A DNA stretch of 64,000 bases from an uncultured Alphaproteobacteria bacterium (GCA_902516235.1 CABXXO010000001.1:1-64000), one strand, 5' to 3'; counted from the stretch's first letter, positions 34,805-56,908 are shown. The notes: a model not told the origin generated them from the letters alone. Numbers and translations: made by a program.

Positions 34805-34997
34805 ATTTATTATTAGTTTTAGAATATCGAGAATATATGTTGGATTTCATAAATTCTCTTTACTCCGATTAAATTTATGAGGTGTTGTTTTTACTTTTGA
34901 GTCATTTTACTATTGCTCATCTATAAATTAACAATCATTAAAATTTTAGTTTGTTATTATTTAATTAGTATTTGTAAAGTTTCAGTTTATTGATTAA

Positions 34998-36395: not shown

Positions 36396-36466
36396 AAGAA
36401 TTTCTCGCTTTCCGATTTAACAAATTGAAATTATAAGACCATAATATAAAATTTCTACTTGAATTT

Positions 36467-36712
36467 ATGAATATAGAATTTTTTAAAAGATCTTGGATGA
36501 AATTTTATAAAAGAGGTTTCATAACTGGGTTCTTAGTACTGACTTTTATGTTAGTAATTGATCAGTTTTTACAAAATCCCCTTTTTTTTAGTAAAATAAC
36601 AAGCATCACGGTTTTTATTTATATTGTCTCTACTATTTTTTTTGCAGCAATATTTTGTGGATTATTAGCTGTAATTTTCACAGGAGTAGTGACAATTGTT
36701 ACAAAAAAATAA
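36467..36712 (+). CDS. Small two-TM membrane protein
   Basis: Two hydrophobic segments in 81 aa. Confidence 0.5.
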   Translation: MNIEFFKRSWMKFYKRGFITGFLVLTFMLVIDQFLQNPLFFSKITSITVFIYIVSTIFFAAIFCGLLAVIFTGVVTIVTKK

Positions 36713-37453
36713 TTAATTTTCTAAACCGTTCAGCCAATTTACTAACTCGAGTTTACGATCATAAAAATCACTACTCTCTAATTGTTCCAAGTTATGAATA
36801 AGTTCGCTAAATTTCTCACCAGTCATTTTATCAAGATAATTTGTTTTCCAGTATGTCATTAAATTTCCTATAAAATTGTAAGGAAGCTCAGGGTGATATT
36901 GAGTACAGGTTATATTATATTTTTTATGAACAATAGACTGGATAGAAAAATCATTTTCAGATATGACTTTAAAATCATTTGGAATATTTTCAACACTATC
37001 ATAATGATGTCCTGGTGCAGTAAATAGATCTTTTTTGTTTCTATAAATGTAATGATCATTTTTTATTTTTATATTATTTGCAAACCCAAATTCAGGTATT
37101 GATGATTTAGTAATTTTGCCTCCAAGAACGGTTACAAAAACTTGCAATCCCCAACAGCTGCCCCAAATAGGTTTACCAAGTTCAACTATTTTAGTAAATA
37201 TTTCTAATTGTTTTTTGTTATGTGAGTTGTTTTCGTAAATATTACCTAAGCCTCCAGTCCATAAAAAAGCATCATAATGAGAAAAATCATATTCATTAAT
37301 GTCAATTAAATATGACTTAAGAACTTTAGTTGTATATTTTGAGTTGTAGTCTTTTATAATCTTCTCAAAAAAAGTGTGTTGGAAAGGGCAATTTGATTTT
37401 ACATGCTGATCATCATGGTTTTTATCCATACCACTGATAATTAGTAAATTCAA
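36713..37453 (-). CDS. Class I glutamine amidotransferase-like protein
   Basis: GKPIWGSCWGLQVFVTVLGG (nucleophile Cys elbow), TCTQYHPELP catalytic His/Glu. Confidence 0.85.
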   Translation of the reverse strand: MNLLIISGMDKNHDDQHVKSNCPFQHTFFEKIIKDYNSKYTTKVLKSYLIDINEYDFSHYDAFLWTGGLGNIYENNSHNKKQLEIFTKIVELGKPIWGSCWGLQVFVTVLGGKITKSSIPEFGFANNIKIKNDHYIYRNKKDLFTAPGHHYDSVENIPNDFKVISENDFSIQSIVHKKYNITCTQYHPELPYNFIGNLMTYWKTNYLDKMTGEKFSELIHNLEQLESSDFYDRKLELVNWLNGLEN

Positions 37454-37864: not shown

Positions 37865-39142
37865 TTATTGATAAGCTTTTAAACCAAGCTCAGCACTGTC
37901 AATTCCAGCTTTTTGTACCGCATCTGGTACACGAAGCCAGCCCATCATCTTCATGATATAGGAAAGGCCATATCCTGGAACAAATCCAAGTAAGAACATA
38001 ACAATTGCCCCTACCAATTGACCTCCAAAGCTAGTTGGTGGAATATCGCCGGATGCTGGGTAACCAGAAGCAAAAAGCCCCATTGCTAATACACCCCAAA
38101 TACCTGCTACACCGTGAACTGAAATAGCACCAACTGGATCATCGATCTTGAAAATACTGTGTAAATAATTATTCGCAGGAATAATAATTACACCACCAAC
38201 AAAACCTAATACAAAAGCTAATCCTGGATACCAGACATCTAGACCAGAAGCGCATGAGAATATACCTGCAAGTCCTCCAGACATCATCCAAAATGGATTA
38301 CCTTTACTCATCCAGAATGCACCGATCATTCCTCCACCAAGACCCATTAGGGTATTGAAAGCAAATGATGAGAGAGTAGCTGGAGCACCATAAATATTGA
38401 TCCATCCACCAAGTTCAGCACCTCCCCATATCAAACAACCACCGAGGAATCCAAAGAAACCAACAATAATCATTAATAAGCCTATGAATGAAAAACGAAG
38501 GTCATGACCTTCAATTTCATTAGCTGTGCCGTCAGCATTATATTTACCAACCCTTGGTCCTAGGTTTAGTACTACACCAAATGCAAACCAACCTGCTATC
38601 ATGTGAACCACACCTGCAGCTCCGACGTCATGATAACCAAATTGGGTTACTAACCATCCATCAGCATGCCAGCCCCATGAAGCTCCGAGTATCCAAGCTC
38701 CTGATCCAAGAACTACTGCTAAGAAAACAAAAGAACTAATTCTTATTCTTTCTAAAACAGATCCAGAGAAAATGGATGCAGTTGTACATGCAAACAATGT
38801 AAATGCTGCCCAGAATATACCTGTGGCTTGATCACTTAACATTGGTCCCATTGATACATTCCATGGTGTTCCATAACCCTCAAGGTCTATTGGTGTAAAA
38901 CCACCTGGGAATGCAAGATAAATATACCAACCAAATAACCAGAAAGTTGGTATCATGAATGCGAATGCTAAAAGATTTTTACAAGCGGAGGATACAGCAT
39001 TTTTAAAACGCGATGATCCAACCTCATACATCAAGAAGCCGACGTGAATAGCAATCATTAACGCAGTACACCACCAATAAAATGCTTCGGTACTAACATT
39101 TGCTTGCATCATCACAAACGATTCAAGTTCTTCAAGTGTCAT
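37865..39142 (-). CDS. amt: Ammonium transporter
   Basis: 11-TM Amt/Mep pattern: NLLAFAFMIPTFWLFGW, GVVHMIAGWFAFGVVLNLGPR, DDPVGAISVHGVAGIWGVLAMGLFA. Confidence 0.93.
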   Translation of the reverse strand: MTLEELESFVMMQANVSTEAFYWWCTALMIAIHVGFLMYEVGSSRFKNAVSSACKNLLAFAFMIPTFWLFGWYIYLAFPGGFTPIDLEGYGTPWNVSMGPMLSDQATGIFWAAFTLFACTTASIFSGSVLERIRISSFVFLAVVLGSGAWILGASWGWHADGWLVTQFGYHDVGAAGVVHMIAGWFAFGVVLNLGPRVGKYNADGTANEIEGHDLRFSFIGLLMIIVGFFGFLGGCLIWGGAELGGWINIYGAPATLSSFAFNTLMGLGGGMIGAFWMSKGNPFWMMSGGLAGIFSCASGLDVWYPGLAFVLGFVGGVIIIPANNYLHSIFKIDDPVGAISVHGVAGIWGVLAMGLFASGYPASGDIPPTSFGGQLVGAIVMFLLGFVPGYGLSYIMKMMGWLRVPDAVQKAGIDSAELGLKAYQ

Positions 39143-39349: not shown

Positions 39350-40657
39350 ATGGTAACCAATCTTCATCAGTTCGCTAAGAAAAATGGAGTGAAATATTTT
39401 TTTGTAAGTTTTGTAGATTTATTCGGTGTTCTGAGATCAAAACTTGTGCCTGCAACAGCTATAGATGAAATTCAATCAGAAGGAGCAGGATTTGCTGGTT
39501 TTGCAACATGGTTAGACATGTCACCAGCAGACTCAGATATGTTTGGTATGCCTGATGGTGATAGTGTTATCCAACTTCCTTGGAATAAGGAAATAGCTTG
39601 GGTTGCATCCGATTTATACATGGACGGCAAACCAGTAGAAGCATCACCACGAATTGCATTGAAAAGACAAATAGAAAAAGCAGCAAAAAAAAATCTTCAT
39701 ATGAAATCTGGAGTTGAATGTGAGTTTTTTTTGGTAAACGAGGATGGAACTTCTTTGTCAGATGTGAGGGATACACAAGCTAAACCTTGTTATGACTCTT
39801 CTGCCTTAATGAGAAGATATGATGTTATCACAGAGATATGTGACTCAATGATTTCATTAGGTTGGAAGCCTTATCAAAATGATCATGAAGATGCAAATGG
39901 GCAATTTGAAATGAACTGGGATTTTTCAGATTGTTTAATTACTGCCGATAGACATGCATTTTTTAAATTTATGGTAAAATCAATTGCTGAAAAACATTCG
40001 TTAAGAGCAACTTTCATGCCAAAACCTTTCACAAATTTAACAGGTAACGGATGTCATTGTCATATATCAATCTGGGATAAAGCAGGTAAAAAAAATATGT
40101 TTTTAGATGAAAAAGATGAATTAGGTTTATCAAAAACTGGTTACAATTTCTTGGGCGGCATAATCGAAAGTGCAGACAAAATGGCTGCTGTTTTTAATCC
40201 TACAGTAAACTCTTATAAAAGAATTAATGGAAGTGTCACTACATCAGGTGCAACATGGTCTCCAAGTTCCATTACATGGGCTGGTAACAATAGAACACAC
40301 ATGGTTAGAGTTCCTGGAGCAGGTAGATTTGAATTAAGACTTATGGATGGAGCTACAAATCCATATTTACTTCAAGCAGGCATTCTTCTTTTAGGTTTAG
40401 ATGGTTTCAATAATAAAAGAGATCCAGGGAAACGATTAGACATTAACATGTACACAGAGGGTCACAAAGCTGGAAAGGTAAAAAAACTTCCTTTAAACCT
40501 TCTTGATGCTATTCGTGATTTTGATAAATCAAAAATTATAAGAGCAGGATTTGGTGATGATTTAGTTAATAGTTATGTAAAACTTAAAAATCAAGATTGG
40601 GGTACCTTTAACAAACATCTTTCTAGTTGGGAGAGAGAAACCACTCTAGACTGTTAA
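39350..40657 (+). CDS. gmaS: Type III glutamate-ammonia ligase-like, probable gamma-glutamylmethylamide synthetase
   Basis: KKNGVKYFFVSFVDLFGVLRSKLVPATAIDEIQSEGAGFAGFATWLDMSPADSDMF resembles the GlnT/GmaS subgroup; NGCHCHISIWDKAG; RFELRLMDGATNPYL. Confidence 0.78.
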   Translation: MVTNLHQFAKKNGVKYFFVSFVDLFGVLRSKLVPATAIDEIQSEGAGFAGFATWLDMSPADSDMFGMPDGDSVIQLPWNKEIAWVASDLYMDGKPVEASPRIALKRQIEKAAKKNLHMKSGVECEFFLVNEDGTSLSDVRDTQAKPCYDSSALMRRYDVITEICDSMISLGWKPYQNDHEDANGQFEMNWDFSDCLITADRHAFFKFMVKSIAEKHSLRATFMPKPFTNLTGNGCHCHISIWDKAGKKNMFLDEKDELGLSKTGYNFLGGIIESADKMAAVFNPTVNSYKRINGSVTTSGATWSPSSITWAGNNRTHMVRVPGAGRFELRLMDGATNPYLLQAGILLLGLDGFNNKRDPGKRLDINMYTEGHKAGKVKKLPLNLLDAIRDFDKSKIIRAGFGDDLVNSYVKLKNQDWGTFNKHLSSWERETTLDC

Positions 40658-40661
40658 ACGA

Positions 40662-41216
40662 ATGACTCCAGAGGTATTACAAGAAAAATTTCTTGATTGG
40701 CAATGTCAATCAAGAATTCAAGCATTTAGGACACAAAGTGGTAGACCCAATTCTTCTATGGCTCCGATATTACTTGATAAGAAAGGTAATGAACTCCTAA
40801 GAATTATTGTTGTAATATCTGAAAATGATCCAGTAAACACTACAAAACTTTTTGAACATACTTTTAAACGAACATACGATCCTGCTGACAGATTTGATAA
40901 GATGAATAAATTTTTATCTTCTGAATATTTTATGAATAAAGATAAATTTTCAGACTCTTTGTTTGCTACTTTTCCAAAGAGCTCAAGTATTTCCAAAAAA
41001 GTAGTTAAAGAAGGGTCGTGTATCCTTGATTTTATTCATTTATCAACAAATTACAGGTTGTTTTGTTCTCCATTTATTTTAGATAAAAATGAGGAACATT
41101 GGGAAAATATTTTCTGGCATAATAAAAATTTTAATCCGGGATTGGGGAATGACATCGATGTTATAAAATTTATTCCAAACTGGAAAAAGTCAAAGCTAAT
41201 TAGGATTAAAGATTAA
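40662..41216 (+). CDS. Conserved-looking hypothetical protein coupled to gmaS
   Basis: Begins 4 nt after the gmaS stop; no motif recognised. Confidence 0.6.
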   Translation: MTPEVLQEKFLDWQCQSRIQAFRTQSGRPNSSMAPILLDKKGNELLRIIVVISENDPVNTTKLFEHTFKRTYDPADRFDKMNKFLSSEYFMNKDKFSDSLFATFPKSSSISKKVVKEGSCILDFIHLSTNYRLFCSPFILDKNEEHWENIFWHNKNFNPGLGNDIDVIKFIPNWKKSKLIRIKD

Positions 41217-41220: not shown

Positions 41221-41250
41221 TTTAGCTTTGGGGGGGGCTAAAGCCCCCTA
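41221..41250. terminator. Bidirectional terminator between convergent operons
   Basis: GGGGGC-TAAA-GCCCCC, with overlapping alternative stem TTTAGC/GCTAAA. Confidence 0.75.
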
Positions 41251-41262: not shown

Positions 41263-41736
41263 TTATTCGACTAACTTAAAGTTTTCACCTTTAGCATAGG
41301 TTCTTTTTAATTGAACCAATGGATGATTGGGTGACATTTGAAATTTAATAAGTAACTCTCTTGCCAACATATCTCTGTCTTGTTGGTTTTTTGGAAGTTT
41401 AATTTTTTTAGGAAGAGTTATCCAAGCATTTGCGTTTCTGTCAAATACAGCGGGTGTGTCTCCCTCAAAACCCATATGAATATCTTCTAACCAGTTTAAA
41501 TCATCCCATCCCATAATCTCAATGTATTGCTTTAAGAAAGGAGTTAGGTGTTTGTAATCGGGAATTAAGTTTACATCATAACGATAACCGATATGTTGAC
41601 CGATCATTTTTTCTCTTGATGTTTTAATTTCTTTATCTTTTAGCTTAGCCCCACCTACAACTTGGTAACCTTTTGGTTTAGAAGATTTTTTAGCAGTTTT
41701 TTTTGATTTTGCTGATGATGTTTTCTTTTTAACCAT
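41263..41736 (-). CDS. Hypothetical protein, last gene of the FAD-oxidase/GS/glutamate-synthase-like operon
   Basis: Lys/Ser-rich N-terminus then globular YDVNLIPDYKHLTPFLKQYIEIMGWDDLNWLEDIHMGFEGDTP; 9-nt gap to upstream gene. Confidence 0.65.
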   Translation of the reverse strand: MVKKKTSSAKSKKTAKKSSKPKGYQVVGGAKLKDKEIKTSREKMIGQHIGYRYDVNLIPDYKHLTPFLKQYIEIMGWDDLNWLEDIHMGFEGDTPAVFDRNANAWITLPKKIKLPKNQQDRDMLARELLIKFQMSPNHPLVQLKRTYAKGENFKLVE

Positions 41737-41745
41737 TTTTGTCTC

Positions 41746-43080
41746 CTAGATTGAGTGGTAGTTATCGACACCTACAGTCAAATCTGTTCCAGCTAAAGGT
41801 ACTTTAGCCATTGCTGATGACTCCATTGTTAGTGCTGCTAAGTCTTCTGGTTCAAGAGAGTGGATATTTGTTTTACCACATGCTCTTGCTAACATTTGGC
41901 ACTCAAGAGTCATTGTGCTTAATAAATTATAAACTCTCTCGGCAGCCTCTGTTGGATCTAATCTACTTCTAAGAACAGGATCTTGTGTGGCTACACCGAC
42001 AGGACACCTACCAGTATGACAGTGATAACAATAACCTGCTTCAACACCCATTTCTTTTTCATAATCGGCTTCAGGAATATCTTTATTACAGTTCAAGGCA
42101 ACTAAACCAGCTGTTCCAATAGCTATTGCGTCAGCTCCTAAGGCTAAAGCTTTGGCCATGTCAGCACCATCTCTGATACCACCAGCGAAAACTAATGAAA
42201 TTTCCCCAGTTTTACCCACGTCGTCAAGAGCTCTTCTTGCTTCTCGAATAGCGCCGATACCAGGAATACCAGTATTTGCTGCTGCTATATGAGGACCAGC
42301 AGCTGTAGAACCTTCCATGGAGTCTAAAAATATTGAGTCAGGATCGCATTTTGCTGCCATTCTAACATCATCATAAACCCTTGAAGCACCTAACTTCAAC
42401 TGAATTGGAACTTGATTGTCAGTTAACTCTCTTAATTCTTGTACTTTAAGAGCTAAGTCATCTGGGCCCATCCAGTCTGGGTGTCTAGCAGGAGATCTTT
42501 GATCAATACCAGCAGGTAAAGATCTCATTTCAGCTACTTGGTCTGTAACTTTTTGGCCCATTAAGTGGCCGCCCATTCCAACTTTTTGACCTTGTCCAAT
42601 AAATACTTCAATTGCATCAGCTAGTTGAGCATGGTGCGGATTAAAACCATATCTTGATTGAATACATTGATAGTACCATTTATGAGAATATCTTCTTTCA
42701 TCAGGTATCATTCCGCCTTCTCCAGAGCAAGTAGCACTTCCTGCCATTGATGATCCTCTTGCTAAAGCAGTTTTTGCTTCATAAGAAAGAGCACCAAAAC
42801 TCATGCTTGTTATGTAAACAGGTATATCAAGTTTAATAGGATTTTTTGCTCTAGGGCCTATGATAGTCTCGGTTAAACATTTCTCTCTGTAACCCTCGAT
42901 AACAAATCGTGTTAATGTTCCAGGTAAAAATACTAAATCATCCCAGTGAGGAATTTTTTTCATTAAGGCCATGCCACGCATACGATAACGACCTAGTTGT
43001 GATTTAATGTGAATATCATCCATTACCTCTGGGGTAAAGATTGAGTTTTGTCCTAATAATTGTGTATTACGTTTTGCCAT
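41746..43080 (-). CDS. FMN-binding glutamate synthase-like subunit (GlxD/MgsC family), copy 1
   Basis: MSFGALSYEAKTALARGSSMAGSATCSGEGGM, GGIRDGADMAKALALGADAIAIGTAGL, Cys motif GYCYHCHTGRCPVGVATQDP. Confidence 0.88.
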   Translation of the reverse strand: MAKRNTQLLGQNSIFTPEVMDDIHIKSQLGRYRMRGMALMKKIPHWDDLVFLPGTLTRFVIEGYREKCLTETIIGPRAKNPIKLDIPVYITSMSFGALSYEAKTALARGSSMAGSATCSGEGGMIPDERRYSHKWYYQCIQSRYGFNPHHAQLADAIEVFIGQGQKVGMGGHLMGQKVTDQVAEMRSLPAGIDQRSPARHPDWMGPDDLALKVQELRELTDNQVPIQLKLGASRVYDDVRMAAKCDPDSIFLDSMEGSTAAGPHIAAANTGIPGIGAIREARRALDDVGKTGEISLVFAGGIRDGADMAKALALGADAIAIGTAGLVALNCNKDIPEADYEKEMGVEAGYCYHCHTGRCPVGVATQDPVLRSRLDPTEAAERVYNLLSTMTLECQMLARACGKTNIHSLEPEDLAALTMESSAMAKVPLAGTDLTVGVDNYHSI

Positions 43081-43916
43081 TATCCTAATATTCCTTTCTT
43101 TTCTGCTGGCTCTAGATTGTCATAATTCCAAAGCATTCTACCTGCAACGTATTTTTTAAATTTAGATGCTGGAACCTTGCAATCAATCTCAGCATTTTTG
43201 ATTTTTTGTTCTAGCCATCTAACCTCATGTTCATTCATTTCACCAGGAACGCAGTCAGTTCCTAGGGAATGAGGTTCTCCTCCAACAAAAATGATACCAT
43301 CGTACATAGAGTCACCCATGTTTGCGTTTACATTGCCACAAACAATAATTCTACCTCTTTGCATCATAAATCCAGTGTAAGCACCGGCATTACCACCGAT
43401 TAAAATAGTACCACCTTTCATGTCAATTCCAGTTCTTGCGCCAGCGTCACCTTTAACAATTAAGTCTCCGCCTCTTAAAGCGGCTCCAAAACAAGATCCA
43501 GCGTTATTTTCAACAACAACTTTTCCTGACATCATATTTTCTGCACAAGACCATCCAACTCTTCCGTTAACTCTAACAGTTGGGCCATCAATGCATCCAA
43601 TACCGAAGTAGCCTAAGCTTCCTTCAAAAATTAAGTTAAGCTTATTTAATATCCCTACTCCAAGAGAGTGTTTAGCTCCTGGATTTTTTATTACTATAGA
43701 TCCATAACCTTTTCGAATTGAGTCTCTAATTTTTTGATTTAATTCGTGTGCGTTAATCCCTTCACAGTCAATAGAAGTTCTCTTATTAAAATCAACCTCG
43801 TGGTTTCCATAGTAGGTATAATTCTCTTCTTCGGTTACCTCAAAAAATAGTTTTTGGGATCTACCTGATAAATTTTCATCATCAAAAGCAGATGTTTTTT
43901 TTGTTAAGCCTGCCAT
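43080..43916 (-). CDS. GXGXG glutamate synthase-like subunit (GlxC/MgsB family), copy 1
   Basis: NNAGSCFGAALRGGDLIVKGDAGARTGIDMKGGTILIGGNAGAYTGFMMQRGRIIVCG beta-helix repeats. Confidence 0.88.
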   Translation of the reverse strand: MAGLTKKTSAFDDENLSGRSQKLFFEVTEEENYTYYGNHEVDFNKRTSIDCEGINAHELNQKIRDSIRKGYGSIVIKNPGAKHSLGVGILNKLNLIFEGSLGYFGIGCIDGPTVRVNGRVGWSCAENMMSGKVVVENNAGSCFGAALRGGDLIVKGDAGARTGIDMKGGTILIGGNAGAYTGFMMQRGRIIVCGNVNANMGDSMYDGIIFVGGEPHSLGTDCVPGEMNEHEVRWLEQKIKNAEIDCKVPASKFKKYVAGRMLWNYDNLEPAEKKGILG

Positions 43917-44845
43917 ACTTTCACCTCCGCTTCATAAGGGTCATAAGTTTTAATTTCGTGAGGAAAGATATTCCTAATAGCAACTTCCTCTGATGCACAT
44001 GCTACGATATCTTTGCTTTCATAGATTACCATTGGCTTTGCAGCCATGTGATCTTTGGCCATTCCAAGTTGATCTTTCGTAGCTACAACATATGTAAAAA
44101 CTCCATCTAGTTCGTCTAAACTGTCATGCATCGCTTTTTCAAGTTCAATCCCATTAGCCATTTTGTCTGCTATATATACTGCAATAATCTCTGAGTCACA
44201 GTTTGAATTGAATCTATAACCTTTTCTTTCAAGTACCCTTCTGTTACCCCAATAGTTTGTCAATTGGCCGTTGTGAACAACTGATACATCTTCAAAAGGA
44301 AAAGCCCAGTAAGGGTGAGCAGATTTTATGTCAACATCCGACTCCGTAGCCATTCTTGTATGACCTATGCCATGAGTACCCATAAACTTATTTAGTCCGT
44401 ACTGATCTGAAACAGTTGTAGCGTCCCCTAAATCTTTTATAAGTTCAAGACCTTTACCTATTGATAATATCTCTGTTTTTTCGACTGTCTCAATTTCTGT
44501 TGCTAAATCTGTAAGATCACCTTTAAAGTCAAATATATATCGAAAAGCGTATGGAGTGCTGGAGCTTTGTTTTGTTACTTTCGCACCATGTTTTTTTAAA
44601 ATAGCATCGACAGCGTTTTTTCTATTTTTTAAATCAACAGGTGAGTCAACATTTGCATTTACTTTTTCAGCTTCATTTTCAGATATTTTAAATCTCATTA
44701 CGAAACCTTTTTTGAGTGGTGTCCCATACATAGCGTAACCAGTTGAGTCTGGTCCTCTATGTTTTAGTCCTTGTAACATAAGGCCCATCTGTTCACCTAC
44801 GTTGACCGTCTTTTGTTTATTTATTACTCCAGCTATTCCACACAT
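43904..44845 (-). CDS. Class II glutamine amidotransferase-like subunit (GlxB/MgsA family), copy 1
   Basis: MCGIAGVIN N-terminal Cys, GLKHRGPDSTGYAMY, IGHTRMATESDVDIKSAHPYW, NSNCDSEIIA. Confidence 0.9.
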   Translation of the reverse strand: MCGIAGVINKQKTVNVGEQMGLMLQGLKHRGPDSTGYAMYGTPLKKGFVMRFKISENEAEKVNANVDSPVDLKNRKNAVDAILKKHGAKVTKQSSSTPYAFRYIFDFKGDLTDLATEIETVEKTEILSIGKGLELIKDLGDATTVSDQYGLNKFMGTHGIGHTRMATESDVDIKSAHPYWAFPFEDVSVVHNGQLTNYWGNRRVLERKGYRFNSNCDSEIIAVYIADKMANGIELEKAMHDSLDELDGVFTYVVATKDQLGMAKDHMAAKPMVIYESKDIVACASEEVAIRNIFPHEIKTYDPYEAEVKVWQA

Positions 44846-44863
44846 ACTTTACTCCTATCTATT

Positions 44864-46333
44864 TTATGGTAAGCAATCCAAGTATTTATCGAGATCCCAT
44901 TGAGTTGGAGTGGCTAAAAATTCTTCCCACTCATCCCGTTTGTACTCCATAAACACTTTCATCATGTCACCAGGTAGCCCTTCTTGAATAACTTTGTCAC
45001 TTTCTAAACGATCTAAAGCTTCACCCAGTGTCATTGGTAATTTTTCAACTTGCTTACCAGCTTTCATTTGTTCATACATATTCTGTTGTTCTGGTTTTCC
45101 AGGGTCCATCTTCTCAGAAATACCGTGATCAAATGCTTTCAATAAACCACTACCCATGAGGTATGGATTATGTGCTGAGTCTACCGAACGGTATTCAAAT
45201 CTTCCTGGTGCAGATACTCTTAGGCCACAGGTTCTATTTTGGTAACCCCAATCAGCATAAACTGGTGCCCAAAAACCTGTATCCCACAGTCTTCTATAAG
45301 AATTCACGGTGGATGATCCTAATGCGGTTAATGCAGGAAGATGTTCCATCACACCCCCAATTGCCTGAAGCCCTATTTTGCCAGGAATTCTCTGATCTTT
45401 TCCATCAGGCATAAAGGCATTAGTTCCACCTCTTCTATGATGGAAGACATTTTCCATACCCGGAATACTTTTGTTTCCGCATGGAATGAGCTCATCTTTG
45501 CCGCCTTTCCATAAAGAGACGTTTGTATGACAACCAGATGCAGAAACCCCAACGAAAGGTTTACTAAGAAAACATGCTATTAAGTTAAATTCTCTTGCAA
45601 CTTGCGCACAAATTTGTCTGTATGTTGACAATCTGTCAGCATTTCTTAAAACATCATCATAATTAAAGTTTAATTCTAATTGACCAGGTGCATCCTCATG
45701 ATCACCTTGGATTATATCTAAACCCATAGCACGAGAGTATTCTATTACTTTCATGTATACGGGTCTAAGAGATTCAAATTGATCAATATGATAACAGTAT
45801 GGCTTAGAAAAACCGGAACCTGTTGGGCTACCATCTTCATTCTTAGTTAACCACATCATTTCAGGCTCTGTACCTGCTCTTAATTCTAATTTATGTTTCT
45901 TTTTAAAATCTTCGTGAGCTCTTTTTAGATTACCTCTACAATCAGAAGTTAAGTAACCACCTGGATCGTTTTCTTCTTCTCTGTTTCTAAAACATGTACA
46001 AAATACTCGGGCTATTCTTTTATCCCATGGAATTTGTACAAAAGTTTCTGGGTCAGGTATTCCGACTAATTCGTGAGCTTCTGGACCATAGCCAATATAA
46101 TCACCATGCCTATTTGTAAATAAGTTAGCAGTAGCACCATAAACTAATTGAAAACCTTTGTTTGCTATACTTTCCCAGTGATCAGCAGGTACACCCTTAC
46201 CAACAATTCTTCCAGTTACAGAAATAAATTGATAATAGATATACTCTATACCTAACTTATCAATTTTTTTTCTAACTTGTTTTATATAGTCTTGTCTTTT
46301 TTTATCCTTAACGTACGTTTCTAGCGCTGTCAT
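44864..46333 (-). CDS. Glutamine synthetase family protein (GlnT-like paralogue 2)
   Basis: YIYYQFISVTGRIVGKGVPADHW, GTEPEMMWL, GDHEDAPGQLELNFNYDD, SGCHTNVSLW, RFEYRSVDSAHNPYL. Confidence 0.9.
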   Translation of the reverse strand: MTALETYVKDKKRQDYIKQVRKKIDKLGIEYIYYQFISVTGRIVGKGVPADHWESIANKGFQLVYGATANLFTNRHGDYIGYGPEAHELVGIPDPETFVQIPWDKRIARVFCTCFRNREEENDPGGYLTSDCRGNLKRAHEDFKKKHKLELRAGTEPEMMWLTKNEDGSPTGSGFSKPYCYHIDQFESLRPVYMKVIEYSRAMGLDIIQGDHEDAPGQLELNFNYDDVLRNADRLSTYRQICAQVAREFNLIACFLSKPFVGVSASGCHTNVSLWKGGKDELIPCGNKSIPGMENVFHHRRGGTNAFMPDGKDQRIPGKIGLQAIGGVMEHLPALTALGSSTVNSYRRLWDTGFWAPVYADWGYQNRTCGLRVSAPGRFEYRSVDSAHNPYLMGSGLLKAFDHGISEKMDPGKPEQQNMYEQMKAGKQVEKLPMTLGEALDRLESDKVIQEGLPGDMMKVFMEYKRDEWEEFLATPTQWDLDKYLDCLP

Positions 46334-46350
46334 TTTATTCCTCCTCTACA

Positions 46351-47697
46351 TCAACTCCAAGGGAACGGGCTCTTTGAAACCGGATGCAACTTCCCTTCTT
46401 CATATCGAGAAAATCTGAAAGGTTCTAGAATTTCAGACTTTCCTCCAAGCAATTCATCAGATACTAAATCACCAACTCCGGCCATTTTATATCCATGGTT
46501 TGCGTCTGCTATAATATACACATTTTCTCTATATTGGTCGAATACAGGAAAACGGTCAGGAGTCACACATCCTATACCGCCAGCATTTTGCTTTTTATAC
46601 TTACTGTGACACCCATCAAATTGCTTCTGACAAAAAGCCAGAGCAGAAGTCCATTTATCCTCAAAAGACGATCTTGGTTGAAACTCAAGAGAGTCGTGCC
46701 CATAAGGGTCTAGTTTAATATCATTTACAGGTTTAGTTACATCGTATGGAGATGAACCACCTTGAATACCATTTCTGTAAACATCTGGTTTATAGTAAAA
46801 ACCCCACATTACATTTTCATGAATAACATCACCTGTTTTATTTGAGACAAGCGTAGACTCAGTATCAACATGAATTACAGGATATTCACTTCCCTTTGCA
46901 GTTTTATAACTTCGTGGATCAACTTCAAGTTCACCTTCTTCAAGAGCCATGTATGACCACATAGGTATTTCATTAGTGAAAGTTCCATCAGGTTTTTTGA
47001 TTTTTACAGAATTTGGTAATTCTAAAATTTCCCAAAACTTTCTAACCCAAGGACCAGCAGCAACAACTAGTTGTGTGCACTCAATTGTTCCCTCAGATGT
47101 TTCTACTGCTTTTACAGCACCACTACCATTTGAGGAGATTAAATTATTTGCTTCAACACCCTCAATAACTTTTGCACCAGATGAAATGGCTAATTTATGA
47201 AACCCTTCGATTGCTCCTCTGTTAGCTCCGTAACCAGTCTTTTTTTCATGCAAGACTGAGGATATTCCTTGTGCTTGCCAATCTGGAAGCATGTCCTTCA
47301 TATACTTTTCGCAGTCACTAGCTCCCTCAATAAATTCTGAGTCAAAACCAATTTCCTTTTGTTGGTGATAAACTTCAGACATTCCCTCTTGCATTAATTG
47401 TGAATTGATCTGCATGTAACCCACTGGTTTATATGTTAATGCATCAGCATTTTCATTCCATATATCAACAGAGTGAGCCATTAAACTTCTCATGGCAGGT
47501 TGATAGTAGTTATTTCTTACGATTCCACATGCTACACCACTTGCACCATTCGCAACCTTTGTTTTTTCTATAACAATAACTGAATTTTCTTTTAATTGTC
47601 CTTTACTAGATAGCTTTTTACATAAATGCCAAGCTGTGCTTAAGCCGTGTATACCAGCACCGATTATTAAATATTCACATTTGGACGGCAGACTCAT
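46351..47697 (-). CDS. FAD-dependent oxidoreductase of DAO/sarcosine oxidase beta-like family
   Basis: YLIIGAGIHGLSTAWHL dinucleotide fold; C-terminal GIGCVTPDRFPVFDQYRENVYIIADANHGYKMAG. Confidence 0.88.
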   Translation of the reverse strand: MSLPSKCEYLIIGAGIHGLSTAWHLCKKLSSKGQLKENSVIVIEKTKVANGASGVACGIVRNNYYQPAMRSLMAHSVDIWNENADALTYKPVGYMQINSQLMQEGMSEVYHQQKEIGFDSEFIEGASDCEKYMKDMLPDWQAQGISSVLHEKKTGYGANRGAIEGFHKLAISSGAKVIEGVEANNLISSNGSGAVKAVETSEGTIECTQLVVAAGPWVRKFWEILELPNSVKIKKPDGTFTNEIPMWSYMALEEGELEVDPRSYKTAKGSEYPVIHVDTESTLVSNKTGDVIHENVMWGFYYKPDVYRNGIQGGSSPYDVTKPVNDIKLDPYGHDSLEFQPRSSFEDKWTSALAFCQKQFDGCHSKYKKQNAGGIGCVTPDRFPVFDQYRENVYIIADANHGYKMAGVGDLVSDELLGGKSEILEPFRFSRYEEGKLHPVSKSPFPWS

Positions 47698-47753: not shown

Positions 47754-47780
47754 ATTTTGTTTCAAATAATGAAACAAAAT
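47754..47780. promoter_or_regulatory. Operator-like palindrome upstream of the 47697 operon (candidate IclR site 1)
   Basis: Perfect 11-bp arms ATTTTGTTTCA-AATAA-TGAAACAAAAT. Confidence 0.75.
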
Positions 47781-47795: not shown

Positions 47796-48566
47796 TTAGT
47801 TATTAACAATTAATTTAGAAATTTTAATAGATGCGTCTTGCAACAGATTGATATAATTAGCCATTGTTTTTGGATTTAAAATATTTTTACTTCCAGAGAA
47901 AGCGACTCCTGCAAAAGATCTTTTATCTTTATCTAAGATAGCTACACCAATACCATAAGAGTTTTCGAAAGCTTCACCATGATTTAAGGCATAACCATTA
48001 GTTCTAATTTTTGTTAGTTGTTTTCTTAGATCATTTAAATTAACAATAGTGTTATTTGTATGCGGGTAAAAATTATAACTTCTATAAATCGTGGAAATTT
48101 CATTTTCAGGTCTGTAAGCAAGCATCACTTTTCCCAGAGCACAACAGTGTGCGTCTAGTCTCATTCTAAAAGTTCTTATTGTTGCATCATCTGTATTATT
48201 TGAAATTTTATCAGAGTGAACAATTTGTGAACCCTCCAACATAGCTAAGTATGTTATCAAATTTGTTTGACTTGAAATATCTTTTAAAATCTCTCTTGAT
48301 GTTTCGGAAATAGACTGAAGATAATCAGAGGTTTCACCGAATTGAAATGCCTTGTGTCCCATAGTATAGGTGTTTGAACTTAAATTTTTATGAATGTATC
48401 CAAGATCACTAAGAACAGATAATAATCTAAAAGTTGTCGTTCTTGAGAGAGCTGCCTTACGAGAAATATTAGAGGCTTTTAATGGAAAAATTGATTTTGA
48501 GAGTATTTCTAAAATTTTGAAAGATTTTTCTAAAGACTTATTTATGTACTTTAAACCCTGTCCCAT
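47796..48566 (-). CDS. IclR-family transcriptional regulator
   Basis: wHTH FPLKASNISRKAALSRTTTFRLLSVLSDLGYIHK; effector-domain motifs MRLDAHCCALGKVMLAY and GVAFSG. Confidence 0.92.
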   Translation of the reverse strand: MGQGLKYINKSLEKSFKILEILSKSIFPLKASNISRKAALSRTTTFRLLSVLSDLGYIHKNLSSNTYTMGHKAFQFGETSDYLQSISETSREILKDISSQTNLITYLAMLEGSQIVHSDKISNNTDDATIRTFRMRLDAHCCALGKVMLAYRPENEISTIYRSYNFYPHTNNTIVNLNDLRKQLTKIRTNGYALNHGEAFENSYGIGVAILDKDKRSFAGVAFSGSKNILNPKTMANYINLLQDASIKISKLIVNN

Positions 48567-48580: not shown

Positions 48581-48599
48581 TGTTTCAAATTATGAAACA
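48581..48599. promoter_or_regulatory. Operator-like palindrome upstream of the iclR gene (candidate IclR site 2)
   Basis: TGTTTCA-AATTA-TGAAACA, about 15 nt upstream of the iclR ATG. Confidence 0.72.
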
Positions 48600-48718: not shown

Positions 48719-50041
48719 TTAAAACTTTGATCCTGGGATCCATCCGGTACCTGCTAATGGTACTCTAGCCATTGCGGCAGCCTCAACAGTTAGAGCACAC
48801 AAGTCTTCTGGTTCTAAATTATGTAAACTGTTTTTACCACAAGCTCTTGCAATTGTCTGGGCTTCTAATGTCATTACCTTTAAATAATTTGATAAACGTT
48901 TACCCGCTTTAACAGGGTCTAGTCTTTTCATTAATTTAGGATCTTGAGTATTAATTCCAGAGGGATCTTTTCCTTCGTGCCAGTCATCATAAGCACCTGC
49001 AGTTGTGCCTAATTTTTTGTAATCACTCTCCCATTTAGGATCATTATCTCCAAGAGCTATTAAAGCAGATGAGCCTATTGAAACAGCGTCAGCTCCTAGG
49101 GCCATAGCCTTAGCAACGTCTGCACCATTTCTTATGCCACCAGATACTATCAACTGGACTTTTCTATGCATGTCTAAATCTAAAAGAGCATCAACAGCAG
49201 GCCTAATACATGCTAAAGTGGGTTGACCTACATTTTCAATAAATACCTCTTGTGTTGCGGCAGTTCCACCCTGCATTCCATCTAGAACAACAACATCTGC
49301 TCCTGCTTTTACAGCAAGAGCTGTATCGTAGTATGGTCTAGCTCCTGCTAATTTAACAAAAATAGGAACTTTCCAGCCAGTAATTTCTCTAATTTCAAGA
49401 ATTTTTATTTCTAAATCATCGGGCCCTGTCCAATCAGGATGGCGGCATGCGGATCTTTGATCAATTCCTTTTGGGAGAGTACGCATCTCAGCAACCCGAT
49501 CACTAATTTTTTGACCAAGTAGCATTCCTCCGCCACCAGGTTTTGCACCTTGTCCAATAACTACCTCTATGGCATCTGCTTTTCTTAAATCTTCTGGATT
49601 CATTCCATATCTTGAGGGAAGTAATTGGTAGACTAAATGTTTAGATTGTCCTCTTTCTTCTGGAGTCATTCCGCCATCACCTGTAGTGGTTGAAGTGCCT
49701 GAAATACTAGCACCTCTACCAAGTGCCTCTTTTGCAGGACCAGATAAAGCTCCAAAGCTCATACCTGCGATCGTTATAGGAATATCAAGTTCCAATGGAT
49801 TTTTTGCATGTCTAGTCCCTAAAGTAACGTTTGTTGAACATTTCTCTCTATAACCCTCGAGTGGGTATCTTGACATTGACGCTCCTAAAAATAATAAATC
49901 ATCAAAATGAGGTAGTCTTTTTTTTGAACCACCTCCTCGTATGTCATAAATTCCAGTTTCTGCAGCTCTTCTTATTTCTGAGTTTGTGTAATCATCAAAA
50001 GTCCATGATTTTCTTGGAACGGTTTTAAATTTTTCAGACAT
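48719..50041 (-). CDS. mgsC: N-methylglutamate synthase FMN subunit-like (MgsC), copy 2
   Basis: Glutamate synthase FMN barrel: ITIAGMSFGALSGPAKEALGRGASISGTSTTTGDGGM, GGIRNGADVAKAMALGADAVSIGSSAL; linked to mgdABCD-like genes. Confidence 0.8.
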   Translation of the reverse strand: MSEKFKTVPRKSWTFDDYTNSEIRRAAETGIYDIRGGGSKKRLPHFDDLLFLGASMSRYPLEGYREKCSTNVTLGTRHAKNPLELDIPITIAGMSFGALSGPAKEALGRGASISGTSTTTGDGGMTPEERGQSKHLVYQLLPSRYGMNPEDLRKADAIEVVIGQGAKPGGGGMLLGQKISDRVAEMRTLPKGIDQRSACRHPDWTGPDDLEIKILEIREITGWKVPIFVKLAGARPYYDTALAVKAGADVVVLDGMQGGTAATQEVFIENVGQPTLACIRPAVDALLDLDMHRKVQLIVSGGIRNGADVAKAMALGADAVSIGSSALIALGDNDPKWESDYKKLGTTAGAYDDWHEGKDPSGINTQDPKLMKRLDPVKAGKRLSNYLKVMTLEAQTIARACGKNSLHNLEPEDLCALTVEAAAMARVPLAGTGWIPGSKF

Positions 50042-50727
50042 TAATACTCCGATACATTATCTATATTAAAATTATAAAGCTTTCTTGCTGAGCCATACAT
50101 TTTAAAATGTGTTAATTGATTTTCATCAATGTTTGCTTTTTTCAAAAGAGATTTTAGAAGGTCTTGATCTTTTTTATTCATATTTTTTTTTTCACAATCA
50201 GCTCCTAAGGATTTAGGTTCTCCTTTCATAAAAATTTTTGCTTCATAAATACTATCTCCTAACGCATCACCAGCATCTCCACAAATTACTAAGTTGCCTG
50301 ACTGTGCCATAAAGGCAGACATATGACCTACAGAGCCTTTTACAATAATATCGATGCCCTTCATAGAAATTCCACAACGAGAGCTTGTATCTCCGTCAAC
50401 AATTAACGTCCCCCCATGAGCAGTAGCACCAGCCGACTGAGAAGCATTACCTTTTACGTGAACAGATCCTGACATCATATTCTCAGCTACCCCTGTTCCT
50501 ACATTACCATTTACAATAACATCAGCTTTCATATTCATCCCTGCACAGTAATAACCAACATGACCTTCAATGGTTACATCCATTTCATCTTTTAAACCCG
50601 CACAAATTGCATGATTACCATCTGGATTGATTATTTTAAAACTTCTATCATTTGATTTTTGGTCAAGATTTTGAAGTAACTCGTTAACTTTTCTCAAAGA
50701 GTCTTTTTTAAGATTTAATTTAATCAT
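50041..50727 (-). CDS. mgsB: N-methylglutamate synthase GXGXG subunit-like (MgsB), copy 2
   Basis: GXGXG repeats GNVGTGVAENMMSGSVHVKGNASQSAGATAHGGTLIVDG. Confidence 0.8.
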   Translation of the reverse strand: MIKLNLKKDSLRKVNELLQNLDQKSNDRSFKIINPDGNHAICAGLKDEMDVTIEGHVGYYCAGMNMKADVIVNGNVGTGVAENMMSGSVHVKGNASQSAGATAHGGTLIVDGDTSSRCGISMKGIDIIVKGSVGHMSAFMAQSGNLVICGDAGDALGDSIYEAKIFMKGEPKSLGADCEKKNMNKKDQDLLKSLLKKANIDENQLTHFKMYGSARKLYNFNIDNVSEY

Positions 50728-51605
50728 TTTCCCCAGCTGTATACTAAACCAGGTTCAGGTTCAAAAATTTTTGCTTTGTTAACATTAGGTAAATGAGCCA
50801 TTGCTTGAAACTCTGAAGCTATAGCAACGTAATCCTTTGTTTCTGCCACAACAGCAGGCTTACAAGCAATTTCATCTCTTACTATTGCTAAACCATTTTT
50901 GGTACCAGAAATAAAAGTATAAAAACCATCTAAGTCTTTTAATCCATCAATTAATGTCTCTTTTAAAGATTTCTTATTTGATAAACCATTTGAAATGTAA
51001 CCAGCAGCTACCTCTGTGTCGTTTTGAGATTTAATTTCTATTCCCTTTTTTTTTAGTGTTCTTCTTAAATTGTTATGATTTGACAGTGAGCCATTGTGAA
51101 CTAGGCACTCATCCTCTCCTGTTGAATAAGGATGTGATCCATCTGTTGTAATTGCACTTTCTGTAGCCATTCTTGTATGTCCAATAGCATGAGTACCAGA
51201 AAAATTTTTAAGTGAAAAATTATTTACAACATCTCTTGGATTTCCAACCTGTTTAAATATTTCAATTGAACTTCCATAGCCAACTAAATTTAAATTATTA
51301 TAACTCTTGATAATACTTATTACTTTTACAGGTTTTAATGATGTCTCTAAGACAAAATGATCAGATATTATTTTTATTTTTGCATCTTTGATTTCTTTAC
51401 TAAGATTTTTTTTAATTTCTTTGATATTATTTTTGTTATAGCAAATAGAATATTTGTATTTCTTTTTTCTTTCAGTTGAATAGATTGCAAAACCTGCACT
51501 GTCAGGTCCTCGAGTAGACATATTATTCATCATTCCGGTTAAAAATTTACCAAGATCTTTATTGTACTTTTTATTCTTTAGGTAAAGACCGACTATTCCA
51601 CACAT
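50724..51605 (-). CDS. mgsA: N-methylglutamate synthase class II amidotransferase-like subunit (MgsA), copy 2
   Basis: MCGIVGLYL, STRGPDSAGFAIYS, IGHTRMATESAITTDGSHPYS. Confidence 0.82.
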   Translation of the reverse strand: MCGIVGLYLKNKKYNKDLGKFLTGMMNNMSTRGPDSAGFAIYSTERKKKYKYSICYNKNNIKEIKKNLSKEIKDAKIKIISDHFVLETSLKPVKVISIIKSYNNLNLVGYGSSIEIFKQVGNPRDVVNNFSLKNFSGTHAIGHTRMATESAITTDGSHPYSTGEDECLVHNGSLSNHNNLRRTLKKKGIEIKSQNDTEVAAGYISNGLSNKKSLKETLIDGLKDLDGFYTFISGTKNGLAIVRDEIACKPAVVAETKDYVAIASEFQAMAHLPNVNKAKIFEPEPGLVYSWGK

Positions 51606-51610: not shown

Positions 51611-52207
51611 TTATATGGCTTCATAACCATACTCTAAACATGAGTCAGTTATACTATGATAAAAAGAGCCTCCAAAACTTCTGAGGGCAAAAAGATTAAA
51701 GCAGTCTGGTTTTTCACTAATAAAATCAATAATAATATTAATTCCATTATAAGTTGTGTTAGCACAATTATTCGGTTTAAACATATCGTTGTTGAAGTTT
51801 AACGGTGAACCTTTTTTTAATACGTCCTTTGACTTTGAGCCACTGATTTCAATGACTGCTCTTGATTGAGAGATGTCAGTAACAGCAAAATCATTTTCAT
51901 TAAAAATATTATGAATATCCTCAATGAGTTTTTTATCTCTAGATATAATCAACCATGTATCAGGACCTACCCATAAAATCCTAGCAATATTATCTGAAGT
52001 AACTGTTAGACTTTTAGTTGGTAATTTTAAATTATTAAAAATTATTTGATTTATATCAACGTTACTTTTTTTAAATTTAGCAATTTGAAAAATAGATAAT
52101 TCTTTTACTTCAGTTAATTTAAGTATGTCATCTTTATTTTCATAATCTCCATAAAAACCAAGTTTATGATCAAAGTGAAGTGGTGAAATATTCTCTATAA
52201 CAGGCAT
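51611..52207 (-). CDS. mgdD: Sarcosine oxidase gamma-like/N-methylglutamate dehydrogenase subunit
   Basis: LWVGPDTWLIIS, VTDISQSRAVIEISGSKSKDVLKKG typical of SoxG; start MPVIEN at 52207 preferred. Confidence 0.75.
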   Translation of the reverse strand: MPVIENISPLHFDHKLGFYGDYENKDDILKLTEVKELSIFQIAKFKKSNVDINQIIFNNLKLPTKSLTVTSDNIARILWVGPDTWLIISRDKKLIEDIHNIFNENDFAVTDISQSRAVIEISGSKSKDVLKKGSPLNFNNDMFKPNNCANTTYNGINIIIDFISEKPDCFNLFALRSFGGSFYHSITDSCLEYGYEAI

Positions 52208-52208
52208 A

Positions 52209-55208
52209 TTAAGATCTAACTCTCTCGCCATCTGGATCAACGTAATGAGAAGAAACAACCTCAACTGGAATTGAAATATCTTTTAAAGGGGATACAGCAA
52301 AAAGATTTTTTCCTATTTTATTTTTTCCATCTTTTATTATTGCTATAGAAAATGGGTTATTATATTCCACACTCCAACAAGATGAAGATACATGACCTAG
52401 TTTTGGTACAGGAGATGCTACTTTATCATTCTCAACGATATGAGAACCTTCAGGAATTTTAGTTCTTTTATCAAGTGGAACTAATCCAACAATAGTTTGT
52501 CTGTCTTCTGATGAGAACGCTTCTTTAGATAGAGATCTTTTACCAATGAAATCTTTTTTCTTACTTACCATTCCATTTAAACCCACGTCAAAAGGAACTG
52601 CTCTTCCATCTAACTCAGCACCAGCAACGTGACCCATTTCAATTCTAAGTGTGGACAATGCTTCTGTACCATAAGGCTCTATATTAAAAGCTTTACCCTC
52701 ATCCATAATCCTCTTCCACATATGAAGACCAAAATTAGACTCAACATTTACTTCATAAGCTAACTCTCCGGAGAAAGATATTCGATAAATTCTAGCAAAA
52801 ATACCATCAATGTTGGTGTCAACTAATCCCATAAACGGCAATCCTTCATTAGATAAATCTATATTGGGAAATAATTTTGATAAAAGTTCTCTGGACTTTG
52901 GTCCCGCAACAGCAATACCTGACCACTGTTCAGTTGTTGATAAAACATTAACATCTAATTCAGGCCAGACGACTTGAAGATAATATTCTAAGTGAGAGAG
53001 AACATTCGCTGCTTGTGCTGTAGTAGTCGTCATATGAAAATGATTTTCTGATAGCCTTGAAGTAGTACCATCATCAAAAACCATACCATCTTCTCGAAGC
53101 ATCACACCGTATCTAGCTTTACCTACAGGTAATTTTAACCAAGCATTTGTGTAAACTCTGTTTAAAAACTCTGGAGCATCTGGGCCTTTAATATCTATTT
53201 TTCCAAGTGTTGTAACATCACATATTCCAACATTTTTTCTAACATTTGCAGCTTCCCTATTTACAGCATCATTCATATTTTCTGACTCTTTGGGATAATA
53301 TCTAGGTCTTTGCCATAATCCTGCTGCAACAAAAACAGCATTTTTTTCTTCATGCCAATTATGAATTGGAGATTTCCTAGTTGGTAAGTAATGGTTTCCA
53401 ACTTCTCTACCTACAATTGCTCCAATAGTTACAGGAGTATAAGGTGGTCGAAATGTTGTATGACCAACCTCAGGGACAATTTTCTTTTCAATGTTTGAGA
53501 CATACTGAAGACCATTTAGATTACTGGTTTTACCTTGGTCTCCAGCCATTCCTAAAGTTGTATATCTTTTTACGTGTTCAATAGATCTGAAGCCCTCTCT
53601 GATAGCTAATTCAACATCGGACACTGCAACATCATTTTGAAAGTCAATGAAACGCTTTGGTTTTTTTCCTTGTGGTAAAGGCATACACCATAATCTTTCA
53701 TGTTTTTCGTATTTTGGTTCTTTTGAATTTGGTGTGTTAGTTTCAATATTATTATCTGTAAACTTATTTGATAGATCAAATCCAACTTGAAAACCTTCGG
53801 CTAAAGATTGGTTTAGTGTAAATGATCCATTAGCTGCTCCCACTGCGCTTTCTCTTTGTCTTTTTTTGTCAGGAACAAAAGCATCTATTTCTTCATTAAA
53901 TTTTAATTTATTACCGGCTTGAGATGATAAATGAACTGTTGGAGTCCAACCACCAGACATACAAATGCAATCACAATCAATACTCTCCAAGCTAGTAAAG
54001 TTTTCTTTGTCTTTATCTAATTCACCGATGACCGCAGATTTAATTTTTAAATGACCTTTTGTGTCAGCAATACCAGAATTAAATCTAATGTTGACACCTT
54101 TTTGTTTAACTTCCTTAACCAACTCGCCGTTAGAATTATTTCTAGTGTCTAAAATTACAGGAGTGATGTCATTTTTTAAAAATTCTAGGGCAGTTGAATA
54201 AGCAGTGTCATTGTTCGTAAAAATAATTGGTTTCTTACCAACCAACGTCTCGTAAACTGTCATATATTCTTTGGCTGCAGATGCTAACAAAATCCCTGGT
54301 CTGTCATTATTACCAAAAGAAATTGGTCTTTCTATAGAGCCCGTTGATACGATTACCTCACCTGCTCTAATATAATGTAATCTTTGTCTTGGAGTATATT
54401 TAGATGGATTTTCTTGGTGATCGCTGACCCTTTCGATCATCACAGTCATATTATGATCATAGTATCCAAAAACCTGAGATCTTTTTTTCAAAATTACATT
54501 GGGCAAACTTTTTAATTGAGCAACAGTATCATTAGCCCACTCTTTACCAGACATGTTTCCAATTGTGACCTCATCGGTAAGAAGCGATCCTCCAAAGTTA
54601 GCTTTATCTTCAGCAAGAATGACTCTGGCACCATTTTTTGCAGCTGCTAATGCACTGGCTAAACCAGAGGGGCCAGAACCAACAACAAGAACATCACAGT
54701 GTTCGTAATTATGTTCATATCTATCGGGATCAGGTTGTAGTGGAGCCACTCCCATTCCTGCAGCTTTTCTGATAAAAGGTTCATATATTTTCATCCAAAA
54801 ACTTTTTGGCCACATAAATGTTTTGTAATAAAAACCTGCTGGGAAAAAACGATTAAGCAAATTATTCACTTCCCCTATATCAAATTGCACTGAGGGCCAA
54901 CAATTTTGACTTTTCGCTTTAAGCCCTTCAACAAGTTCAACTTCGGTTGCAATAATATTGGGTTCTGACTTATTACCTTCATGTAATTGAACCATTGCAT
55001 TTGGTTCCTCTACTCCAACTCCTAAAAAACCTCTTGGTCGATGATATTTAAAACTTCTTCCAATCAAATGGATACCATTAGATATCAATGCAGATGCTAA
55101 AGTGTCACCCTCGTATCCATGATAAGTGTGGCCATTAAAAGAAAAATTAATTTTTTTATTTTTATTTATTAAGCCAGTTGAATTTTTTGTTCTATAAGCA
55201 TTACTCAT
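52209..55208 (-). CDS. mgdC: Sarcosine oxidase alpha-like/N-methylglutamate dehydrogenase subunit
   Basis: FSFNGHTYHGYEGDTLASALISNG 2Fe-2S-like N-terminus, VLVVGSGPSGLASALAAAKNGARV, C-terminal GcvT-like domain. Confidence 0.83.
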   Translation of the reverse strand: MSNAYRTKNSTGLINKNKKINFSFNGHTYHGYEGDTLASALISNGIHLIGRSFKYHRPRGFLGVGVEEPNAMVQLHEGNKSEPNIIATEVELVEGLKAKSQNCWPSVQFDIGEVNNLLNRFFPAGFYYKTFMWPKSFWMKIYEPFIRKAAGMGVAPLQPDPDRYEHNYEHCDVLVVGSGPSGLASALAAAKNGARVILAEDKANFGGSLLTDEVTIGNMSGKEWANDTVAQLKSLPNVILKKRSQVFGYYDHNMTVMIERVSDHQENPSKYTPRQRLHYIRAGEVIVSTGSIERPISFGNNDRPGILLASAAKEYMTVYETLVGKKPIIFTNNDTAYSTALEFLKNDITPVILDTRNNSNGELVKEVKQKGVNIRFNSGIADTKGHLKIKSAVIGELDKDKENFTSLESIDCDCICMSGGWTPTVHLSSQAGNKLKFNEEIDAFVPDKKRQRESAVGAANGSFTLNQSLAEGFQVGFDLSNKFTDNNIETNTPNSKEPKYEKHERLWCMPLPQGKKPKRFIDFQNDVAVSDVELAIREGFRSIEHVKRYTTLGMAGDQGKTSNLNGLQYVSNIEKKIVPEVGHTTFRPPYTPVTIGAIVGREVGNHYLPTRKSPIHNWHEEKNAVFVAAGLWQRPRYYPKESENMNDAVNREAANVRKNVGICDVTTLGKIDIKGPDAPEFLNRVYTNAWLKLPVGKARYGVMLREDGMVFDDGTTSRLSENHFHMTTTTAQAANVLSHLEYYLQVVWPELDVNVLSTTEQWSGIAVAGPKSRELLSKLFPNIDLSNEGLPFMGLVDTNIDGIFARIYRISFSGELAYEVNVESNFGLHMWKRIMDEGKAFNIEPYGTEALSTLRIEMGHVAGAELDGRAVPFDVGLNGMVSKKKDFIGKRSLSKEAFSSEDRQTIVGLVPLDKRTKIPEGSHIVENDKVASPVPKLGHVSSSCWSVEYNNPFSIAIIKDGKNKIGKNLFAVSPLKDISIPVEVVSSHYVDPDGERVRS

Positions 55209-55473: not shown

Positions 55474-55476
55474 TAA

Positions 55477-56806: not shown

Positions 56807-56908
56807 AATATTTTATTTATCCTTTATTCTGTTACCTTAATGACTAAAAAATGGATTGGAAATTTATTTATAATATTTAATATATTCTCAATTCAGGGGA
56901 GAATATTT

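Follow-up and report, generated by a model that had tools for sequence, protein, structure and literature searches.

The six-gene operon described here (Table 1) is probably a catabolic module for dimethylamine (DMA) that replaces the DMA monooxygenase in bacteria producing DMA from trimethylamine (TMA) or TMAO. This proposal builds on the observed gene order, the linkage to tdm, tmm and mgd genes, a shared operator, the mutual exclusion with Dmm and the retention of catalytic residues; genomics strongly supports DMA as the probable substrate that we infer. A large share of the organic nitrogen in the sea consists of methylated amines, which also feed the formation of aerosols. The TMAO demethylase Tdm releases DMA, the next enzyme known is Dmm, and to our knowledge Dmm is the only enzyme known for DMA. 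SAR11 bacteria lack dmm, a gap that has been interpreted as a bottleneck from which DMA escapes into the atmosphere (PMC5520151), and HTCC1062 can use TMAO as its only source of nitrogen, for which an isoenzyme not yet known is said to be needed (PMC8918994). Because SAR11 lacks dmm yet grows on TMAO, we tested the operon as a replacement for Dmm. It is a concrete candidate for the missing DMA step in bacteria that are among the most abundant of the sea: If the proposal is true, the "dmm bottleneck" reported for marine methylamine degradation would be closed, dmm counts in metagenomes would strongly underestimate DMA-degrading capacity, and GSL and UNK would be the proper marker genes for DMA degradation.

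The window, i. e. the whole stretch of 64,000 nucleotides that was analysed, comes from a genome of 1.02 Mb (69% complete) that probably belongs to the HIMB59 group. All six open reading frames lie on the minus strand between positions 41263 and 47697 in the order DAO-GSL-GlxB-GlxC-GlxD-UNK, with neighbours 9-18 bp apart or overlapping, and they are surrounded by a full trimethylamine cluster (tmm, tdm, mgdABCD, mgsABC, gmaS and amt). The closely packed minus-strand genes and the protein families that had been proposed from the DNA sequence only (the sequence-only reading) are borne out by the open reading frames with their coordinates and by domain matches. This includes the MgsABC-like trio: GlxBCD are a three-gene set of GATase, GXGXG and FMN proteins of the MgsABC type encoded in one operon. 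The genes of hyp184 and UNK are convergent, and a perfect GC-rich hairpin, GGGGGCTAAAGCCCCC, separates them at positions 41233-41248; it is probably a terminator common to both. Positions 32783-37453 hold a further glutamyl cluster, in which a glutaminase carrying ankyrin repeats is accompanied by a third GS-like protein (34998-36395) and by a class-I GATase (36713-37453).

Table 1. The proposed DMA operon, neighbouring genes and operator sites (positions in the window).
Feature	Position	Strand	Description
DAO	46351-47697	-	FAD-dependent amino-acid-type oxidase, 448 aa; proposed N,N-dimethylglutamate demethylase; PF01266; R61 and K404 invariant
GSL	44864-46333	-	GS-superfamily gamma-glutamyl-amide ligase, 489 aa; proposed gamma-glutamyl-dimethylamide synthetase; PF00120 (Gln-synt_C)
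GlxB	43904-44845	-	MgsA-like class-II glutamine amidotransferase, N-terminal Cys; GATase_6/7
GlxC	43080-43916	-	MgsB-like GXGXG subunit; PF01493
GlxD	41746-43080	-	MgsC-like FMN subunit (Glu_synthase); PF01645; CxxCxxxxC motif
UNK	41263-41736	-	Conserved 157-aa operon protein; operon marker; 51 invariant columns
IclR-family regulator	47796-48566	-	PF09339 and PF01614; presumed operator binder
mgsCBA	48719-51605	-	Canonical N-methylglutamate synthase (48719-50041, 50041-50727, 50724-51605)
mgdDCBA	51611-56733	-	Canonical N-methylglutamate dehydrogenase (51611-52264, 52209-55208, 55201-55473, 55477-56733)
gmaS	39350-40657	+	Gamma-glutamylmethylamide synthetase; TIGR03105, 643.7 bits
hyp184	40662-41216	+	FMN-split-barrel (PNPOx-like) protein; model pLDDT 96, Foldseek matches
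amt	37865-39142	-	Ammonium/methylammonium transporter family; domain match
tmm	56840-58243	+	Trimethylamine monooxygenase; NF058570 above curated cut-off
tdm	59606-61957	-	TMAO demethylase (makes DMA); NF053776 above curated cut-off
Operator GTTTCA-N5-TGAAAC	47759-47775		Upstream of DAO; conserved in relatives
Operator GTTTCA-N5-TGAAAC	48582-48598		Upstream of iclR
Operator, 1 mismatch	56790-56806		Between mgdA and tmm

The distribution of the operon follows that of Tdm and excludes that of Dmm. Among 386 alphaproteobacterial genomes, UNK was present in 37, Tdm in 36 and both in 28 (Fisher p ~1e-27, a value that ignores relatedness); nine operon genomes had no Tdm. In this set, DmmA occurred in none of the Tdm-bearing genomes with the operon and in five without it. 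The family f22, which we infer to be the Rhodobacteraceae, comprises 299 genomes, essentially one per genus, and 68 of these had Tdm over the cut-off: 24 with UNK only, 40 with DmmA only, none with both and four with neither. For 21 of the 24 genomes with UNK, the distance between UNK and tdm was no more than 13 kb. When pooled, the 99 genomes with Tdm over the cut-off fall into 50 with the operon only, 44 with DmmA only, none with both and five with neither (p ~7e-23, relatedness being ignored, with the f22 part represented by one genome per genus). DmmA stands here for a PF11927 protein of about 350 aa with at least 215 bits, plus three contig-edge fragments, a class that was split from the weaker PF11927 paralogues after the scores had been seen and was checked on few loci; in the inspected loci, a 2Fe-2S reductase gene comes directly after it or tdm is nearby. 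Taking all PF11927 matches as Dmm was rejected, as a second paralogue family (~129-190 bits, ~250-300 aa) is encoded elsewhere in most f22 genomes. A third family is present in HIMB59-type genomes, and the window genome has PF11927 only as a weak paralogue without the reductase. None of the operon proteins matched the Dmm pair of PF11927 heme subunit and 2Fe-2S reductase.

Since the module takes the place of Dmm in Tdm-bearing genomes, the related N-alkyl substrate anticipated by the sequence-only reading can be narrowed to DMA. It is unlikely that the operon is a second module that applies glutamyl-amide chemistry to another small primary amine such as ethylamine, ethanolamine, taurine or a polyamine: The GSL superfamily does glutamylate varied amines, and plasmids carry distant GSL relatives together with P450 and aldehyde dehydrogenase genes, but such a substrate leaves the mutual exclusion with Dmm and the linkage to tdm and tmm unexplained, and the annotated recurrent neighbours of the complete operon include no aldehyde dehydrogenase. 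A polyamine role was rejected, as putrescine in SAR11 has been assigned to transamination and not to these genes (PMC8437039).

The order DAO-GSL-glxB-glxC-glxD-UNK recurs in SAR11 single-cell genomes, Rhodobacterales, Kiloniellales, Methyloceanibacter and others (some contigs stop before UNK), it is kept in far more genomes than expected by chance, and the operon lies in or beside a TMA/TMAO cluster with tmm, tdm, the tmo transporter, amt, gmaS, mgsABC and mgdABCD. The operon fills the same step as DmmDABC and often the same spot in tmm-tdm clusters, as can be seen from the Dmm-type cluster of G510 (tmm-AMT-dmmB-dmmA-tdm-mgdA-mgdC) and the operon-type cluster of G376 (tmm-tdm-GSL-glxBCD-UNK-hyp184; G369 is alike, with no hyp184 in the stretch). 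The two systems are not homologous: Dmm consists of a heme oxygenase and a reductase, whereas the operon encodes an ATP-dependent ligase, a glutamate-synthase-like trio and a flavin oxidase. In G445, G522, G675 and G473, GSL-glxBCD-UNK adjoins hyp184-tmm-tdm, and G494 and G602 have the operon-type neighbourhood with DAO in place. As to the genomes with neither system, the contig of G046 ends directly after tdm (L225), that of G580 is 5.5 kb long, the Tdm score of G515 is borderline, and in G631 and G646 GSL is followed by a cytochrome P450 gene beside tmm-tdm and mgsABC-gmaS. Because the operon-type clusters and this P450 variant all carry GSL, GSL is the element common to the informative dmm-less Tdm clusters. 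GSL directly followed by P450 was seen in tmm-tdm clusters without Dmm, and a related pair of P450 and GSL (51-53% identity) is encoded on Paracoccus and Ruegeria plasmids (L239:1410-4096 and L240:478-3140; also L034 and L035).

The top match of GSL in the PDB is the glutamate-methylamine ligase 9qur, and GSL scores 300.7 bits against TIGR03105, the GmaS equivalog, below the cut-off of 469.6, whereas the gmaS product of the window reaches 643.7; the view of the sequence-only reading that this is a GS-family enzyme different from gmaS holds. The active-site comparison with GmaS suggested in that reading, with residue roles and numbering carried over from PMC7948447, showed that the catalytic residues Asp177, Glu186 and Arg312 and the amine-pocket residues Lys30', Tyr147, Gln175 and Asn188 are identical in all 68 GSL sequences, and that the pocket neighbours Tyr174 and Asn176 are replaced by Ile and Gly. 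Asp50' and the flap Glu of the ammonia-dependent glutamine synthetases are Val and Trp, respectively (68/68 each), and for this reason an ordinary role in the GS/GOGAT pathway was rejected. It is accordingly very improbable that the operon encodes a plain glutamine/glutamate synthase for ammonium assimilation, as the annotation (glnT, glxBCD) has it: amt is often adjacent and GlxD keeps the glutamate-synthase-like CxxCxxxxC motif, but this function explains neither DAO nor the link to Tdm.

GlxB starts with CGI in 64 of 67 homologues, the nucleophilic Cys being kept, and CxxCxxxxC is present in 58 of 63 GlxD sequences (five were not parsed). This motif is the kind of Fe-S site found in glutamate synthases; MgsC mostly reads DDWHEGKDP at that position (10 of 13 parsable sequences), and the MgsC of the window lacks the motif. 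CxxCxxxxC in GlxD gives a hint that the reaction is reductive and draws its electrons from an external donor. With GltB, GlxBCD share the motif and the GATase, FMN and GXGXG domains; they differ from it by being split over three genes, with UNK, beside an amine ligase. UNK has its invariant columns across 22 homologues, and profile searches gave no Pfam or NCBIfam match; a single weak PDB sequence match (E 0.002) is not believed, and a fold search with its structure model (pLDDT 70, moderate confidence) returned no match. The unannotated 184-aa protein hyp184 accompanies the operon; it was found in 28 loci, and in many genomes its gene has gmaS, amt and the operon as neighbours. Its model is confidently assigned to the FMN-split-barrel (PNPOx-like) fold, and one may speculate that it takes part in electron supply. 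G254, which has no Tdm, GSL or DAO, carries gmaS-glxBCD-UNK-mgdA-mgdC, a pairing with gmaS from which it follows that GlxBCD and UNK are not DMA-specific and can apparently serve methylamine; the specificity for DMA should for this reason reside in GSL and DAO. At L242:5595-16456 the order is gmaS-glxBCD-UNK-CN_hydrolase-hyp184-mgdA-mgdC, with no GSL, DAO or Tdm, so that GlxBCD and UNK are paired with GmaS.

PDB profile searches matched DAO to SoxB and dimethylglycine oxidase. In the alignment, its invariant R61 and K404 fall on the Arg and Lys of the SoxB substrate positions, which bind a carboxylate, a group that DMA does not have; this favours an N-methylated amino acid and argues against free DMA as the substrate. 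DAO reached none of the cut-offs of the curated named subfamilies (best TIGR01373 with 63.6 vs. 529.45 bits). DAO has the fold and the conserved Arg and Lys positions of the sarcosine and N,N-dimethylglycine oxidases of its family; it differs from them by low identity and the absence of a folate domain. The genes of DAO homologues are also found apart from GSL-GlxBCD in several genomes, and DAO was rejected as a marker of the operon, as there are solo copies, which are interspersed with operon copies in its tree. Solo copies are repeatedly linked to mgdABCD, and DAO alone is found near Rieske oxygenases, including in the Dmm-containing genome G192. The solo homologues at L100, L101, L104, L112, L138 and L163 lie beside Rieske oxygenases (GbcA-like), LysR/AraC regulators or mgd/sox genes and are candidate dimethylglycine or N,N-dimethyl-amino-acid oxidases. 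A long branch sets the HIMB59-type DAO apart (~54% identity to all others), although the identity of GSL and GlxD is 70-90%; replacement or divergence of the DAO gene may account for this.

This solo occurrence, and the pairing of an MgsABC-like trio with GmaS in G254, could suggest that DAO oxidizes free DMA to methylamine and formaldehyde, with GSL-GlxBCD-UNK as a second enzyme set for methylamine. We regard this as quite improbable: The carboxylate-binding residues of SoxB that align with the Arg and Lys of DAO would have nothing to bind in DMA, gmaS and mgsABC are already there for methylamine, and it is GSL, not DAO, that accompanies tdm in the clusters of G376 and G369 as well as in those of G631 and G646, which lack dmm.

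The sequence-only reading had DAO "instead of" the four-subunit dehydrogenase, which is probably wrong: A SoxB/MgdA-type gene is present in 61 of the 61 operon-bearing genomes tested, and it is for this reason more likely that DAO supplies MgdABCD with N-methylglutamate, as an upstream step rather than a replacement. MgdABCD has four subunits with a folate-binding MgdC; the operon has a single DAO, and mgdABCD is encoded separately. In G223, a genome without gmaS, mgdA adjoins the operon. By membership tests the module is neither GmaS nor MgdABCD, yet it seems to work like the N-methylglutamate pathway (GmaS, MgsABC, MgdABCD), with which it shares the logic, a homologous ligase, the GlxBCD trio and the genomic place, MgdABCD probably being the common last step. 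It differs by the separate family of GSL, by the CxxCxxxxC motif of GlxD, by the addition of DAO and UNK and by the substrate, probably DMA.

We suggest that GSL would join DMA to glutamate at the expense of ATP to yield gamma-glutamyl-dimethylamide; GlxB would then free DMA, which GlxBCD with UNK would add reductively to 2-oxoglutarate to form N,N-dimethylglutamate. DAO would oxidatively strip one methyl group to give N-methylglutamate and formaldehyde, and the neighbouring MgdABCD would convert N-methylglutamate to glutamate and a C1 unit. We lean towards the view that SAR11, HIMB59-type and many other alphaproteobacteria degrade DMA via these two intermediates, with the same ligase and a P450 as a second variant. 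In reductive amination a secondary amine is a less usual partner than a primary one, which counts against the route. A search of openly accessible journal papers returned neither N,N-dimethylglutamate nor gamma-glutamyl-dimethylamide in bacterial amine metabolism. The gamma-glutamyl-dimethylamide made by GSL could also be demethylated as the amide to gamma-glutamylmethylamide rather than pass through N,N-dimethylglutamate. The clusters of G631 and G646 with GSL and P450 followed by mgsABC-gmaS would agree with this, but as far as we know DAO-family flavoenzymes act on amines and not on amides, and together with the repeated linkage of solo DAO to mgdABCD this makes demethylation of the amide doubtful.

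The shared operator noted by the sequence-only reading is real: GTTTCA-N5-TGAAAC was found three times in the 64-kb window with at most one mismatch, at DAO, at iclR and between mgdA and tmm, as compared to 0.28 expected. The operator was counted in the window and in the inspected loci. At the DAO site, the arms are conserved among relatives and the spacer is variable; of the HIMB59-type loci inspected, nearly all have the exact site (one mismatch in L092 and L094), as do seven sister-lineage loci. We presume that the IclR-family regulator binds this operator. The idea of a second amine-glutamate module is supported as well.

SAR11 has tmoX, tdm, a gene for 116 aa, DAO, GSL, glxBCD, UNK and amt in this order, followed by gmaS or mgsABC. 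The published HTCC1062 locus names, i. e. SAR11_1302 opuAC, 1304 "monomeric sarcosine oxidase", 1305 glnT, 1309 hypothetical and 1310 amt (PMC3160333, PMC5069961, PMC2704228), fit this order, and by synteny SAR11_1304-1309 is therefore the same operon. SAR11_1313-1316, treated as N-methylglutamate synthase in PMC3160333, is the other, canonical set and distinct from SAR11_1304-1309. The 116-aa gene (family 22; L140:9570-9920) between tdm and DAO is SAR11-specific and has no Pfam match, and in HIMB59 sister lineages a choline/ethanolamine-kinase-like protein (L125:8199-9074; best NCBIfam GntI) is encoded adjoining tdm, as is by eye also the case in G631.
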